From the NCBI RefSeq assembly GCF_000020505.1, contig NC_011027.1, positions 1 through 64,000 of the forward strand: a stretch of 64,000 nt of DNA, written 5' to 3'. Positions within the stretch are counted from its first letter, which is position 1, and every line of letters begins with the position of its first letter. The notes under the pieces are model-generated. The model saw only the letters and a list, made by a program, of their open reading frames with translations. It made no database searches and had not been told where the DNA came from. Source of the stretch: Chlorobaculum parvum NCIB 8327 (GTDB lineage: Bacteria; Bacteroidota; Chlorobiia; Chlorobiales; Chlorobiaceae). The translations under genes were made by a program, and so were the position numbers. Positions 11,807 to 56,542 of the stretch are shown here, piece by piece.

Positions 11807-12151
11807 ATGAGGCTTACATCGAAAGGCGTAGTGATTGCGGCGCTTGCCGTATTGCCATTGTTGCCTGCCGGAATGGCGCGGGCTCAGGCTCCTGAGCAGT
11901 CAAAGAGCATTCCGCGTGGTGAGATCTTGTCGCTCTCCTGCGCCGGATGTCATGGCACCGATGGTAAAAGCGAAAGCATCATTCCGACGATCTACGGCAG
12001 GTCGGCTGAGTACATCGAATCCGCGCTGCTCGATTTCAAGTCTGGCGCTCGCCCGTCTACCGTGATGGGGCGTCATGCCAAAGGGTATTCCGACGAGGAG
12101 ATTCACCAGATCGCCGAGTACTTTGGATCGCTTTCAACCATGAACAATTAA
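11807..12151 (+). CDS. fccA: Flavocytochrome c sulfide dehydrogenase, heme subunit
   Basis: This small periplasmic c-type cytochrome takes electrons from the FccB flavin during sulfide oxidation. The 114-residue precursor has a Sec signal peptide of about 26 residues ending ARAQA, one heme-binding CAGCH at 45-49 and a likely Met ligand in STVMGRH near residue 82. The start is supported by GGAGGA at 11795-11800. The stop is 15 bp before fccB, so the pair is an operon. The length suits the monoheme FccA of green sulfur bacteria. Confidence 0.92.
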
Positions 12152-12166
12152 TCCGGGGAGGCAGCT

Positions 12167-13453
12167 ATGAGTATTTCACGACGCGATTTCAATAAACTGC
12201 TTCTTTCCGGTGCGGCCGGTTCCATGTTTGGCCTGTTGGGTGCCAGTGGCAAGGCGTTTGCCGGCACGAAACGGGTTGTGGTGGTCGGCGGCGGTTTCGG
12301 TGGCGCCTCCACAGCCAAATATCTCCGAAAACTCGATCCTTCGATTTCAGTCACGCTGGTCGAGCCGAAGGCGGCTTTCGTTACCTGCCCCTTCAGCAAC
12401 TGGGTGCTGGGCGGCTTGAGGACGATGGCCGATATTACCCATAACTTCAATGCGCTTCAAAACACCTACGGCGTTACGGTGATTGCCGACAAGGTTGTGT
12501 CGATCAATCCGGGCAAGCACGAAATCATGCTCGGCAGTGGCAAGCGGTTAGGGTATGACCGGCTTGTCGTTTCACCCGGTATCGATTTCAAGTGGGAAGC
12601 CATTCCGGGCTACAGTCAGCAAATTGCTGAATCGTCTATGCCGCACGCATGGCAGGCCGGCGCTCAGACTGTTCTTCTCCACAAGCAGCTTCAGGCGATG
12701 AAAAACGGCGGCACCGTGCTGCTCTGTCCGCCCGGAAATCCGTTCCGCTGCCCTCCCGGCCCTTACGAGCGCGCAAGCCTTATTGCCCATTACCTGAAAC
12801 AGCACAAGCCGAAGTCGAAGGTCGTGATCCTCGATGCCAAGGACAAGTTCTCAAAGCAGGGCCTGTTCACGAAGGGCTGGGAGCGGCTCTATCCGGGCAT
12901 GATCGAGTGGCACGCAGCATCGAGCGGTGGCAAGGTGCTCGGTGTTGATGCCAAGGCAATGACTGTCGAGACCGATTTCGGGCCGGTTAAGGGTGATGTG
13001 ATCAACGTCATCCCGCCACAGAAGGCCGGAAAACTGGCCTTTGACGCAGGGCTGACCAACGAAAGCGGCTGGTGTCCGGTTGATCCCTCTTCGTTCGAAT
13101 CCACGATTCATCCCGGCATTCACGTCATCGGCGACTCCTGTATTGCCGGCGCGATGCCCAAGTCCGGATTTGCAGCCAGCAGCCAGGGCAAGGTTGCTGC
13201 GGCGGCGATTATCAACCTGCTGAACGGTCACAAGCCGGTGCCTCCATCGCTGGTGAATACCTGCTACAGCCTCATCGGAACGAATTACGGCGTCTCGGTC
13301 GCCGCGGTGTATGAGCTGTCCGACAAGGGAATCGTCAGCATTCCGGGTTCCGGAGGTCTCACTCCTGCCGACGCCAGCGACGATCAGCTAGCACAGGAGG
13401 CGATGTTCGCTGAAGGGTGGTACACCAATATCAGCAAAGATATCTGGGGGTGA
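12167..13453 (+). CDS. fccB: Flavocytochrome c sulfide dehydrogenase, FAD subunit
   Basis: FccB is the periplasmic flavoprotein that oxidises sulfide to sulfur or polysulfide and passes electrons to FccA. The 428-residue precursor begins [15 protein letters not shown], a twin-arginine signal consistent with export of a folded FAD protein, followed by the FAD-binding [10 protein letters not shown] near residue 42. Cysteines in [10 protein letters not shown] and VNTCYSLI are candidates for the redox disulfide near the flavin. GGGAGG lies before the ATG. A strong hairpin terminator follows, so fccAB forms a two-gene unit. Confidence 0.95.
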
Positions 13454-30033: not shown

Positions 30034-30318
30034 ATGTCCCCATCGATACATTCATTGGATTTCAATCAGCATGTGTCGGAAATCAGGCAGACGCATTCTG
30101 AGCTGGCTGCTCATGCTTGTCGTGCGGTTAATGTCAGTTTGACTCTGCGTAACTGGTTGATTGGTTGTCATATTGCTGAATATGAGCTTAACGGTGCTGA
30201 TCGGGCGACGTATGGCGACAGGGTGCTTAAGGAATTGCAGGCAGGAAGTGGCAGGCGGCCCGCAGTGCTCTGTTTCCCAGCGTTATTGACGATTACCGAA
30301 CAACAACTGCTGCTTTAA
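30034..30318 (+). pseudogene. Truncated DUF1016/YhcG nuclease N-terminus
   Basis: Only the N-terminal part of a YhcG-type (DUF1016) PDDEXK nuclease remains. SEIRQTHSELAAHACRAVNVSLTLRNWLIGCHIAEYELNG and DRATYGDRVLKEL match the family start, but similarity stops near residue 72 and the frame ends at 94 residues, while full members are about 330-370. The C-terminal nuclease domain is missing. It sits beside the DUF2971 gene and an unusual repeat array, marking a decayed accessory patch. Confidence 0.72.
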
Positions 30319-30331
30319 ATAGCAGTTGCTG

Positions 30332-30425
30332 TTGTGTATTGTTTGGCATTCTCAAATTCTTTTGTGTATCGTGAATGCGTCTTTTCGATACACAAAAGTT
30401 GTTGTGTATTTCCTGCGATACACAA
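30332..30425. repeat. Five-copy GATACACAA / TTGTGTAT array
   Basis: TTGTGTAT occurs at 30332-30339, 30362-30369 and 30402-30409, and inverted at 30388-30395 and 30418-30425. Two pairs form perfect inverted repeats: 13 bp (30359-30371 with 30386-30398) and 8 bp (30402-30409 with 30418-30425). No known family is recognised; it could be an operator cluster or the relic of a mobile or toxin-antitoxin locus. Confidence 0.75.
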
Positions 30426-30509
30426 GGCTTTTCACTTGACGGTTTTTGCTCCCCTCGCATTTTCCCAACCCTCAATTGCATTCTCCATCCTTATTTTTAT
30501 ATTACTGAA

Positions 30510-30525
30510 TAGTTATATAATTGAT
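30510..30525 (+). promoter_or_regulatory. TAGTTATA direct-repeat site A (rhodanese-dsrN)
   Basis: TAGTTATA (30510-30517) is followed immediately by TAATTGAT (30518-30525), about 80 bp before the rhodanese ATG. It is one of five related 8-bp-period sites in this window. Confidence 0.6.
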
Positions 30526-31094: not shown

Positions 31095-32480
31095 TTGAGT
31101 GCTATCACCATTCCGAGGCTGATGATTTCGGCTTCTTGGAAGAGCGCCGGGAAGACCACGGTGGCGCTGGGGCTGCTGCGTCTGCTCGGGCGCGAGGGCC
31201 CGGTGGTGAGCTTCAAGAAGGGGCCCGATTACATCGATCCGATGTGGCATCGCGTGGCCAGCGGCGGGGAGTGCTACAACCTCGATCCGTGGATGATGGG
31301 CGCGGAGATCTGCCGCGAGTCGTTCGTCCGCGCTTCGTTGAAATATCCCGGTGGGCTGGCGCTGATCGAGGGGAACCACGGACTGCACGACGGCCTCGAC
31401 ATGGCTGGTTCGGACAGCAGCGCAGGGCTGGCGGCCCTGCTCGATACGCCGGTGGTGCTGGTAATCGACGGCCGCCGGGTCAATCGTGGCGTGGCGGCGC
31501 AGGTGCTCGGGCTGATGGCGATGCCACCGAAGGTGAACATCGCTGGCGTCATCTTGAACCATGTCGCCAGCGCCCGGCAAGAGGCAAAGCAGCGGGAGGC
31601 GATCGAGACCTATTGTAAGGTGCCGGTGCTTGGCGCGGTTCCGTCGAGCGCCTCGCTAGTGCTGCCCGAGCGGCATCTCGGTCTCGTGACGGTTGGCGAG
31701 TCCCCGGATGCCGAGGCTTTCATCGATGCCGCCGCCGAGCAGGTCTCGAAGCATTGCGATATCGATGCGATCAAGGTGCTCTTCGATTCCGCGCCACCGT
31801 TCGACGCGCCGGAGCCGATCACGATCCCGACGCCAGAAACGAGCGCAAAAGCGCGAATCGGCGTGTTCCGCGACGACGCCTTCTGTTTTTACTACCCCGA
31901 CAATCTGGAGGCTCTTCGGGCGAGCGGCGCGGAGCTAGTCTTCATCGACACCTTCAAGACCACATCGCTACCGGAGATTGACGGCCTCTATCTTGGCGGC
32001 GGATTTCCGGAATCGTTCTTCGAGCAGTTGAGCGCGAACACCGGGCTCATGCGCGACGTGCGAGAGCGGATCGAGGCGGGGATGCCCGCATGGGCGGAGT
32101 GCGGCGGCCTTATCTATCTGTGCCGCAGCGCCACCTGGCAGGGGCAGACATGGCCGCTGTGCGGCGTGCTGCCGATCGACATTGGCTACCAGCGCAAGCC
32201 CGCCGGGTGTGGCTATCTCGAACTCGAAAGCCGCGCCGGATCGGCGTGGTTCGGTGATGGCGAACGCATCCGCGCCCATGAATTCCACTACTCCAAGCCT
32301 GCCGAAGGCTCGCCTGAGCTGGCCTGTCAGTTCGATGTGGCGAGGGGGTTCGGTCTGACCGGCCATGAGGACGGCATTCTCCACAAGAACCTTTTCGCCT
32401 CCTACGCGCACCTTCACGCAGCCGCAAACCCGCACTGGGCAAAGCGCTTTGTCGAGCTTGCTGTAAGCTTCAAGTCCTAA
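31095..32480 (+). CDS. dsrN: DsrN, cobyrinate a,c-diamide synthase-like amidase
   Basis: DsrN is thought to amidate siroheme to the siroamide form used by Dsr-type sulfite reductases. The 461-residue protein has the CbiA layout: an N-terminal ATP-binding domain with SWKSAGKTTVALGLL near residue 15, and a C-terminal glutamine amidotransferase domain with ECGGLIYLC (nucleophile Cys near 335) and the His in AHEFHYSK. Start is TTG 31095, supported by GGAGG at 31083-31087. Paralogy to CbiA/CobB means substrate is inferred from dsr context. Confidence 0.88.
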   Translation: MSAITIPRLMISASWKSAGKTTVALGLLRLLGREGPVVSFKKGPDYIDPMWHRVASGGECYNLDPWMMGAEICRESFVRASLKYPGGLALIEGNHGLHDGLDMAGSDSSAGLAALLDTPVVLVIDGRRVNRGVAAQVLGLMAMPPKVNIAGVILNHVASARQEAKQREAIETYCKVPVLGAVPSSASLVLPERHLGLVTVGESPDAEAFIDAAAEQVSKHCDIDAIKVLFDSAPPFDAPEPITIPTPETSAKARIGVFRDDAFCFYYPDNLEALRASGAELVFIDTFKTTSLPEIDGLYLGGGFPESFFEQLSANTGLMRDVRERIEAGMPAWAECGGLIYLCRSATWQGQTWPLCGVLPIDIGYQRKPAGCGYLELESRAGSAWFGDGERIRAHEFHYSKPAEGSPELACQFDVARGFGLTGHEDGILHKNLFASYAHLHAAANPHWAKRFVELAVSFKS

Positions 32481-32517: not shown

Positions 32518-32563
32518 CCGCTGATTTTTTTATCACAAGCTCTTGTTCGATTAAAAATATTTT

Positions 32564-32579
32564 GCTAACTATATAACTA
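32564..32579 (-). promoter_or_regulatory. TAGTTATA direct-repeat site B (dsrC distal)
   Basis: Read on the minus strand this is TAGTTATA followed by TAGTTAGC, two adjacent 8-bp units, about 230 bp before dsrC. Confidence 0.65.
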
Positions 32580-32671
32580 TGTGGTTGAATTGTTTTATGT
32601 TCATTCATAAATGATGCCCATTCAGCAATTCCGGTTCGTCAGGGGCGAGCCATCGTTAAGAGAAAAAGTTT

Positions 32672-32681
32672 CACAATTGTT
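32672..32681. promoter_or_regulatory. CACAATTGTT element upstream of dsrC
   Basis: The 10-mer CACAATTGTT lies 21 nt before repeat site C. The identical 10-mer lies 20 nt before the repeat site upstream of the FadL-type gene. Confidence 0.45.
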
Positions 32682-32702
32682 TTGAAAAATTGAAATCAAT
32701 TT

Positions 32703-32734
32703 CTTAACTATATAACCATATAACGATATTAATT
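32703..32734 (-). promoter_or_regulatory. TAGTTATA direct-repeat site C (dsrC proximal)
   Basis: Four consecutive 8-bp units read on the minus strand as AATTAATA, TCGTTATA, TGGTTATA and TAGTTAAG. It ends about 75 bp before the dsrC ATG, and is the longest of the arrays. Confidence 0.68.
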
Positions 32735-32809
32735 GTCAGCTGCAGGGCTTTGCCAGAACGGCGAGCGCCTGCCGACAACCTCAACACCACACCAAAAAGG
32801 AGAACTATC

Positions 32810-38240: not shown

Positions 38241-38681
38241 ATGACCAGAGCGTGGGAACAGAAAGTTAACGAAAACCGGGAGGTCGTGCTCGATCGGTGG
38301 GTGTCGTCCATCGTGGCGATGCTGCCCGGATCGAAGAGCGGTGGTTCGCTTGTTGCTTCGGCCATTGCGGCCGAGCTTGGCGGGCTGCTGGATGCCGTCA
38401 CCGATCACTCCGCTTCGGCGGCAGAATCGATCGTGCGCATCACCCGTATCCTTGCCGTGCAGGAGATTCCTCCATCGAAAGCCCTTTCGATTCTTTTCCA
38501 GCTTCGTGGATTGATCGAAGCGTTGCCGGTCGAATGCGATCACCCGTGCCGCGACCGCCTCGAAGAGCTGACGCTGCAAGCGTTCGACAGCTACATGAAG
38601 CATCGCGAAACCATCTATCAGCTCAAATTCGATGAGGGCCGTCGCAAAATGCACATGGCGCTCAGGAGGGCCGAGGCATGA
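38241..38681 (+). CDS. dsrT: DsrT, RsbRD N-terminal-like protein
   Basis: This 146-residue all-helical protein resembles the RsbRD N-terminal domain (a non-heme globin-like sensor module) seen next to dsrM in sulfur bacteria and called DsrT. It starts MTRAWEQKVNENREVVLDRWV and has a second helix pair AESIVRITRILAVQEIPPSKALSILFQLR. Its role is unknown; a sensory or assembly function for DsrMK is inferred from gene order. The stop overlaps the dsrM start (ATGA). Confidence 0.75.
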   Translation: MTRAWEQKVNENREVVLDRWVSSIVAMLPGSKSGGSLVASAIAAELGGLLDAVTDHSASAAESIVRITRILAVQEIPPSKALSILFQLRGLIEALPVECDHPCRDRLEELTLQAFDSYMKHRETIYQLKFDEGRRKMHMALRRAEA

Positions 38682-54031: not shown

Positions 54032-54041
54032 CACAATTGTT
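54032..54041. promoter_or_regulatory. CACAATTGTT element upstream of the FadL-type gene
   Basis: This is the same 10-mer as at 32672-32681, again 20-21 nt from a TAGTTATA array. Confidence 0.45.
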
Positions 54042-54061
54042 AATGTTACCATATATTCAAT

Positions 54062-54077
54062 TAGTTATATAGTTGTA
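54062..54077 (+). promoter_or_regulatory. TAGTTATA direct-repeat site D (FadL-type gene)
   Basis: TAGTTATA (54062-54069) is followed directly by TAGTTGTA (54070-54077), about 350 bp before the FadL-type ATG. Confidence 0.65.
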
Positions 54078-54426
54078 TCGACGATTTTTGTCTGGTGGTT
54101 GGCAATGATATGAGTTGTATTGCAGCTTTTTGTGCCAACAGAATTTGATTGACGATTTCGCTCCCCTTTACCCCTTCTCTTATTTGAGCCGGTACTGATG
54201 CCGGAATAGATGTTGTACCTCTCTCTGCGGAGTTGCCTTTTTGGCGCCCGCTGGACAGAGCGCATAGTGTTTCCTGGAGGGGTTGAACTCTTCCGGATTA
54301 AATCGGTACCGGCTCTTTCCGTTTCCTTTCATGATCATGCAACGGTCGTCTGCCCCTGCAGGAGGCTGTTGCGTCAAGGGCACGGTGCGCCGTACGCATC
54401 AAGCTAACCTCAAGTTCAATAACATC

Positions 54427-56167: not shown

Positions 56168-56542
56168 AGCGGTGCGTGGTTATGAGGATTAAGAGATGCT
56201 AACGATTGACCTCCGAAGGTTTTGAAGGCAACCATACCTGAAAATAGGCTTCTCGGCACGAAAATAATTCCCCCTGACGCTTTTTTTGTGGAAAATGGGT
56301 TCGGAATAGCGCAACCGTCCAGTCGATGGGAGGGGGTGATCGGTTGTCGTGTCTGCAAAACTTATGCATCAGCGCAGGCTCCCTGATGCGTAAACGCTTC
56401 TTTCAGGAACGTTCGATTTTATTTGGGAGTTTGAATGCCACGCCTTATAATATAACTGATTAATTGTATCGTTATATAGTGTGCTTTTTGCGGTATTGTG
56501 GGATACCCAGGCATTAACCCTTCAACTACCGGATTTCGTGGT
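56168..56542. other. Divergent control region, dodecin/TauE-type permease
   Basis: 375 bp without a credible gene. It holds repeat site E (56451-56484) close to the permease start; otherwise nothing is recognised. Confidence 0.5.
56451..56484 (+). promoter_or_regulatory. TAGTTATA direct-repeat site E (TauE-type permease)
   Basis: Three adjacent 8-bp units TAATTGTA (56461-56468), TCGTTATA (56469-56476) and TAGTGTGC (56477-56484) are preceded by an inverted unit TATAACTG (56451-56458). The array ends 58 bp before the likely ATG. Confidence 0.65.

Follow-up and report, generated by a model that had tools for sequence, protein, structure and literature searches.

Green sulfur bacteria are model sulfur oxidisers, and C. 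tepidum has only ~20 predicted transcription regulators (PMC11269200). In the open-licence literature that we searched, from which subscription journals were largely missing, no transcription factor or operator is named for the dsr, sox, sqr or fcc genes of these bacteria. The closest described systems are the ArsR-family regulators SoxR, sHdrR, SqrR and BigR, which have been described as repressors (PMC10451225, PMC12423496), the ArsR/SmtB metalloregulators, whose operators have a 4-N6-4 spacing, for example CCTGAACA-GA-TGTTCAAG (PMC8790569), and MetJ, whose operators consist of met-boxes of the form AGACGTCT (PMC4239095). The C. parvum genome carries arrays of unspaced 8-bp boxes that recall MetJ, and the TAAC-N6-GTTA pairs found in some of them share the spacing of the ArsR/SmtB operator. 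We show below where the arrays occur, how far they are conserved and which genes they accompany; that they are operators of one sulfur-oxidation regulon, in most Chlorobiaceae and a sister family, is the explanation we find most likely. One conserved operator would then link much of the sulfur-oxidation pathway, including FadL porin and TauE transporter genes of unknown role.

Box arrays in the 64-kb window

The window, that is the whole stretch analysed, comprises bases 1-64000 of a single 2,289,249-bp contig; the genome containing it is G000, and other G and L numbers are the genome and locus labels used in the analysis. The initial annotation had claimed five sites with adjacent 8-bp units, all intergenic, upstream of rhodanese-dsrN, dsrC (twice), a FadL-type porin and a TauE-type permease. 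All five are present and intergenic, and Pfam agrees with the genes named downstream. The site spans held in part, the real arrays being slightly wider.

30493..30524, minus strand: array upstream of rhodanese-dsrN, reading TCAATTAT ATAACTAT TCAGTAAT ATAAAAAT on the minus strand; 32.6 bits
30605..31072, plus strand: rhodanese-domain gene (Pfam Rhodanese 6e-20)
31095..32480, plus strand: dsrN, CobB/CobQ-like amidotransferase (Pfam GATase_3 2e-37)
32543..32548, plus strand: -35-like TTGTTC of dsrC promoter P1, in the pattern TTG-N19-YTAACTAYAT
32565..32596, plus strand: dsrC P1 array, CTAACTAT ATAACTAT GTGGTTGA ATTGTTTT; 43.5 bits, E 7.8e-6 genome-wide
32682..32687, plus strand: -35-like TTGAAA of dsrC promoter P2, 16 bp upstream of the P2 array
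32704..32735, plus strand: dsrC P2 array, TTAACTAT ATAACCAT ATAACGAT ATTAATTG; 36.8 bits
32810..33145, plus strand: dsrC, first dsr-cluster gene downstream of both arrays (Pfam DsrC 3e-40)
54045..54076, minus strand: array upstream of the FadL-type porin, reading ACAACTAT ATAACTAA TTGAATAT ATGGTAAC on the minus strand; 27.5 bits
54427..55839, plus strand: FadL/Toluene_X outer-membrane porin gene (Pfam Toluene_X 1.6e-37)
56444..56483, plus strand: array upstream of the TauE-type permease, CTTATAAT ATAACTGA TTAATTGT ATCGTTAT ATAGTGTG; 28.2 bits
56543..57499, plus strand: TauE/SafE permease gene (Pfam TauE 2.9e-40)

Each array consists of in-register 8-bp boxes of the form ATARYTAT (ATAACTAT or its reverse complement ATAGTTAT); the central AC or GT defines the orientation of a box. 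The unit had previously been written as T-N-R-T-T-R-T-A; ATARYTAT describes it better, since ATAACTAT in some genomes is replaced by ATAGTTAT in others in the same register (e.g. L041, L047). Two to four of these near-palindromic boxes are joined without spacers, creating an inner palindrome ATAAC-N6-GTTAT, and the commonest four-box form is symmetric (AAC-AAC|GTT-GTT). Of 42 sites, only 4 have a strict TAAC-N6-GTTA pair at the junction of boxes 2 and 3, and direct repeats make up many of the sites. The suggestion of cooperative binding to the 8-bp repeats is still an inference, without binding data.

When the window was scanned with a 32-column profile trained without the sites of the C. parvum genome, the same five arrays ranked as the top five. 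The next independent site reached 11.3 bits and the best of 60 Markov shuffles 14.4 bits, and overlapping secondary matches fell at exact 8-bp offsets. The profile still contains close relatives of the two dsrC sites, so the three other sites are the fairer test. In the same scan no array above 9 bits was found at the fccAB genes inside the window (11807-13453). The consensus TNRTTRTATNRTTRTA, proposed as common to all five sites, held in part: three fit it exactly and the other two require 2 mismatches. Within the window it has 8 matches at up to 2 mismatches against 0.60 expected, and the window holds all three exact matches of the 2.29-Mb genome. Among the next best is position 70021 (1 mismatch), 6 kb beyond the window, where it precedes a second SQR-like gene. 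Genome-wide at the same tolerance there was no enrichment (77 matches vs 84 for the reversed pattern), and this loose consensus was rejected as a genome-wide test for being too degenerate.

The dsr cluster begins in the order rhodanese (30605), dsrN (31095), dsrC (32810) and dsrA (33218). DsrC is 97% identical to that of G040. Alignment of the dsrC upstream regions of 29 Chlorobiaceae revealed in most of them TTGAAA-N16-TTAACTAT-ATAACYAT-..., continuing in exact 8-bp register, with the N16 spacing from TTGAAA to the array retained in most orthologous promoters. The dsrC promoter and its array are thus kept in most dsr-bearing Chlorobiaceae, and conservation at orthologous promoters is confirmed. 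Two promoters with arrays (P1 and P2) precede many Chlorobaculum dsrC genes, and in 61 genomes the pattern TTG-N19-YTAACTAYAT gave 44 listed matches vs 7 for its reverse. Since the array starts 16 bp after TTGAAA, it covers the probable -10/start region, although start sites are predicted and have not been mapped. Arrays also occur at orthologous rhodanese-dsrN loci (G021, G012), upstream of FadL genes (G012, G018, G021, G041, G015) and at TauE/tusA loci (G003, G015, G041).

Several other features were observed near these sites. Between the FadL array and the start codon of FadL lies a leader of ~350 nt (54077-54426), which is unusually long for a target in the window. At 54033-54044 there is a second palindromic-looking string, (A)ACAATTGTTAA, which recurs near several arrays, being found upstream of FadL in G012 (L227), SQR in G015 (L237), fcc in G024 (L236) and a rhodanese gene in G000 (L029); it could be the site of a second factor or a -35 variant. 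Inverted copies of TTTTGTGTATCG / CGATACACAAAA (30355-30430), possibly a remnant of inserted DNA, separate the rhodanese promoter from a truncated DUF1016_N ORF (30034-30318). The dsr cluster also contains a 146-aa ORF (38241-38681), not assigned to any family, before a dsrM-like gene. In G046 (L353), G029 (L345), G011 (L346) and G013 (L058) the region upstream of dsrC is wholly different, with TAATATTGTATTAAC before the Shine-Dalgarno sequence and no arrays, which might represent replacement of the dsr promoter in one Chlorobium clade. A match to TTG-N19-CTAACTATAT at G000:C1:2018620-2018651 (L094; also L096 and L097), kept in three Chlorobaculum genomes (G000, G014 and G018), has a tRNA-like stretch on one side and a MarR-type gene on the other, and was dropped as a regulon site. 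Beside a MarR-FUSC gene pair, it is likely to be MarR's own operator.

Distribution of the arrays across genomes

A profile built from 43 dsrC-upstream sites only (R1) was run on ten whole genomes. Its better matches outside dsrC were mostly intergenic, and its targets there were SQR, fccAB, soxYZ-fccAB, Psr-like, FadL, tusA-dsrE2/TauE and rhodanese-dsrN genes; among the weakest matches (E above ~0.3) were some without a sulfur gene. A pattern match also stands upstream of sat. The array profile R2, run on 24 genomes, gave 49 distinct sites at E<=0.1 by manual count, almost all intergenic, whereas its reversed form (R3) gave 1. Some 40 of these 49 sites are next to sulfur genes: dsrC (14), SQR types (7), sox/fcc (5), TauE/tusA (4), FadL (3), Psr-like (3), rhodanese-dsrN (3) and a periplasmic rhodanese (1). 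The remainder adjoin FrhB-like, methyltransferase, NDH2-like or MOSC genes or a contig end. Further C. parvum members of the regulon are a rhodanese gene (391 kb), SQR (1184 kb) and an fccB paralogue (1191 kb). Representative genes were named from Pfam and the others by reading their translations, and E-values from such short profiles are rough.

Some of the 49 sites had served in building R2. No non-dsrC site of G041, G050, G010, G055 or G001 went into the profile, yet these genomes show FadL, TauE/tusA, Psr-like, soxYZ, SQR and fcc sites. Equal frequency of the arrays elsewhere can be rejected given the 49 sites against 1 and the proportion beside sulfur genes, and on the same grounds we conclude that the sulfur regulon is real. 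The proposal of a possible new sulfur regulon is therefore supported by comparative genomics, without expression or binding data. The sites precede functionally related orthologous genes and are absent where such genes are lost. Six genomes without dsrC and arsR had no R2 sites except three weak matches (E>=2.5); since these genomes also lack SqrD, this absence may only reflect missing targets. A search for the exact array string among 85,000 genomes returned 18 matches, 7 of them in records titled Chlorobi, Chlorobiaceae, Chlorobiales or Chlorobaculum, and the other 11 resemble chance.

In Chlorobium an array also adjoins a conserved FrhB/FdhB-like gene of the F420-hydrogenase beta type (L246 in G041, L232 in G003, L257 in G015), which may encode a new sulfur-linked oxidoreductase.

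An ArsR-family candidate regulator

The initial annotation had left the regulator unidentified. This has changed, as an ArsR-family protein encoded outside the window is a good candidate.

G000:692602-692991: gene for the ArsR-family protein, candidate regulator
G012:643423-643809: its orthologue in C. tepidum

The protein has an ArsR-type winged-helix domain (NCBIfam HTH_metalloreg, 81 bits vs a cut-off of 55), and its sequence matches in the PDB are BigR, CadC and SmtB. ATARCTAT-like boxes are found in the arsR promoter of most Chlorobiaceae; the forward profile outscored the reversed one at 29 of 30 arsR promoters (median 12.9 vs 3.4), and weak R1 matches lie upstream of arsR in G012 and G014 (E 2.5 and 3.4). 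In the sister family, an R2 site at G086:1477721-1477745 (E 0.026) immediately precedes the arsR orthologue at 1477836, with three boxes (ATTACTAT TTGATTAT ATAGTTAT), and three boxes are also present upstream of arsR in G087 (ATTGTTAT ATAACTAA ATAGCTAT). Other sister-family sites precede SQR-like genes.

The gene and the arrays also tend to occur together. In a search of 98 genomes with stricter filters, R2 sites were found in 58 of 78 genomes with ArsR vs 3 of 20 without it (Fisher 1.8e-6), and two of those three are only 77-80% complete. Likewise, arsR is present in 47 of 48 genomes with dsrC vs 7 of 13 without (1.9e-4). Neither value is corrected for shared ancestry. C47, C89 and C102 are all intact in the 27 dsr-bearing ArsR sequences first checked (27/27), and among genomes without dsrC, G020 has C47A, G010 has C102G and G054 has a stop codon in arsR. 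The wider ArsR set is less clean, with C89 missing in G029 and the last cysteine shifted by two in G009 and G058. In the clade of G011, G013 and G029, neither the dsrC array nor the arsR box is present.

There is also evidence against the candidate. G026 and G027 have kept arsR without dsrC and SqrD, and G047 and G059 retain part of the array at dsrC but show no clear box before arsR. Textbook ArsR sites are of 12-2-12 form, whereas the arrays are unspaced 8-bp direct repeats reminiscent of MetJ boxes. Furthermore, since the gene adjoins hsp20/dnaK and ECF/anti-sigma genes, ArsR may control something else. We favour by a modest margin the view that the ArsR-family protein reads the arrays; the support comes from comparative genomics only, there are no DNA-binding data, and another binder is possible.

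Proposed mechanism, rival explanations and known systems

We propose a model in which the arrays define one regulon, ArsR is its regulator and repression is relieved by sulfur. On balance we incline towards this model as a whole; the repression, the cooperativity and the sulfur signal are inferred. In the absence of reduced sulfur, ArsR would repress dsr, rhodanese-dsrN, SQR, fcc, sox, Psr-like, FadL and TauE/tusA genes, as well as its own gene. A protein bound to an array over the -10/start region would block RNA polymerase, repression over -10/+20 being suggested by analogy with SoxR, sHdrR, SqrR and BigR, and consecutive boxes could hold overlapping dimers. Sulfane sulfur would then modify the ArsR cysteines, leading to release from the DNA. 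A bolder reading, which we hold a little more doubtful than probable, is that one master repressor governs the oxidation of reduced sulfur in nearly all green sulfur bacteria. It would be an ArsR thiol switch with a cysteine geometry of its own, would have its gene apart from the targets, and would repress itself and polymerise along MetJ-like arrays. To our knowledge, no ArsR protein polymerises along arrays of 8-bp boxes.

The same regulon could have another reader, with one dimer of a MetJ-like ribbon-helix-helix or TrpR-like protein on each 8-bp palindromic box and arsR merely a target. The unspaced near-palindromic ATARYTAT boxes, in both orientations and two to four per site, resemble met-boxes, and since they equally recall MetJ this possibility is retained as a less likely alternative. 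Against it, the only protein above the RHH_1 cut-off in G000 and G012 is of NikR type, and G021 has none above the cut-off yet carries arrays; RHH_1 was the sole family searched. An RHH_1 protein as regulator was rejected, being NikR-type only and not universal.

If the sequence were no transcription-factor site and merely served highly expressed genes as a core promoter, with TTGAAA as the -35 and an AT-rich -10, this would agree with the fixed N16 between TTG and the array in most dsrC promoters and with the array covering the expected -10. However, the arrays are few genome-wide and mostly adjoin sulfur genes, the boxes continue for ~24 bp beyond the -10 in exact steps of 8 bp, box orientation flips while the register holds, and the six genomes without dsrC and arsR show just the three weak matches, so that we consider this explanation very unlikely. 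Activation of the same regulon, in which an array-bound factor recruits RNA polymerase when sulfide is present, is also unlikely, though less so. Visual inspection of the dsrC promoters shows no good TATAAT at the normal distance from TTGAAA, a lack that is frequent in activator-dependent promoters, whereas the position of the arrays from the -10 downstream fits repression and the related SoxR, sHdrR, SqrR and BigR are described as repressors.

Returning to the ArsR model, the putative operator is like that of MetJ in having two or more unspaced near-palindromic 8-bp boxes, and differs in the box itself (ATARYTAT vs AGACGTCT) and in that no universal RHH_1 protein was found. It is comparable to the ArsR/SmtB metalloregulators SmtB, CzrA and AzuR in inverted half-sites with 4-N6-4 spacing over the promoter, strictly paired in few sites, and in a presumed autoregulation; unlike them, it has the half-site TAAC rather than TGAA, a tandem extension in 8-bp steps, and sulfur rather than metal targets. 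Like SqrR, SoxR, sHdrR and BigR, the candidate is an ArsR-family protein with cysteines in the alpha-2 and alpha-5 regions and a role, here inferred, in the control of sulfur oxidation. It is no BigR orthologue (48.4 bits vs the family cut-off of 155), and its alpha-2 cysteine aligns three residues from that of BigR, in contrast to the C41/C107-type positions of SqrR, so that a thiol switch of other geometry is possible. Unlike the genes of these four regulators, arsR is unlinked to its putative targets, and the sites are arrays of 8-bp boxes. If the candidate is correct, ArsR-type control of sulfur oxidation would extend from Proteobacteria to green sulfur bacteria, with a cysteine layout and an operator form that differ from those of Proteobacteria.
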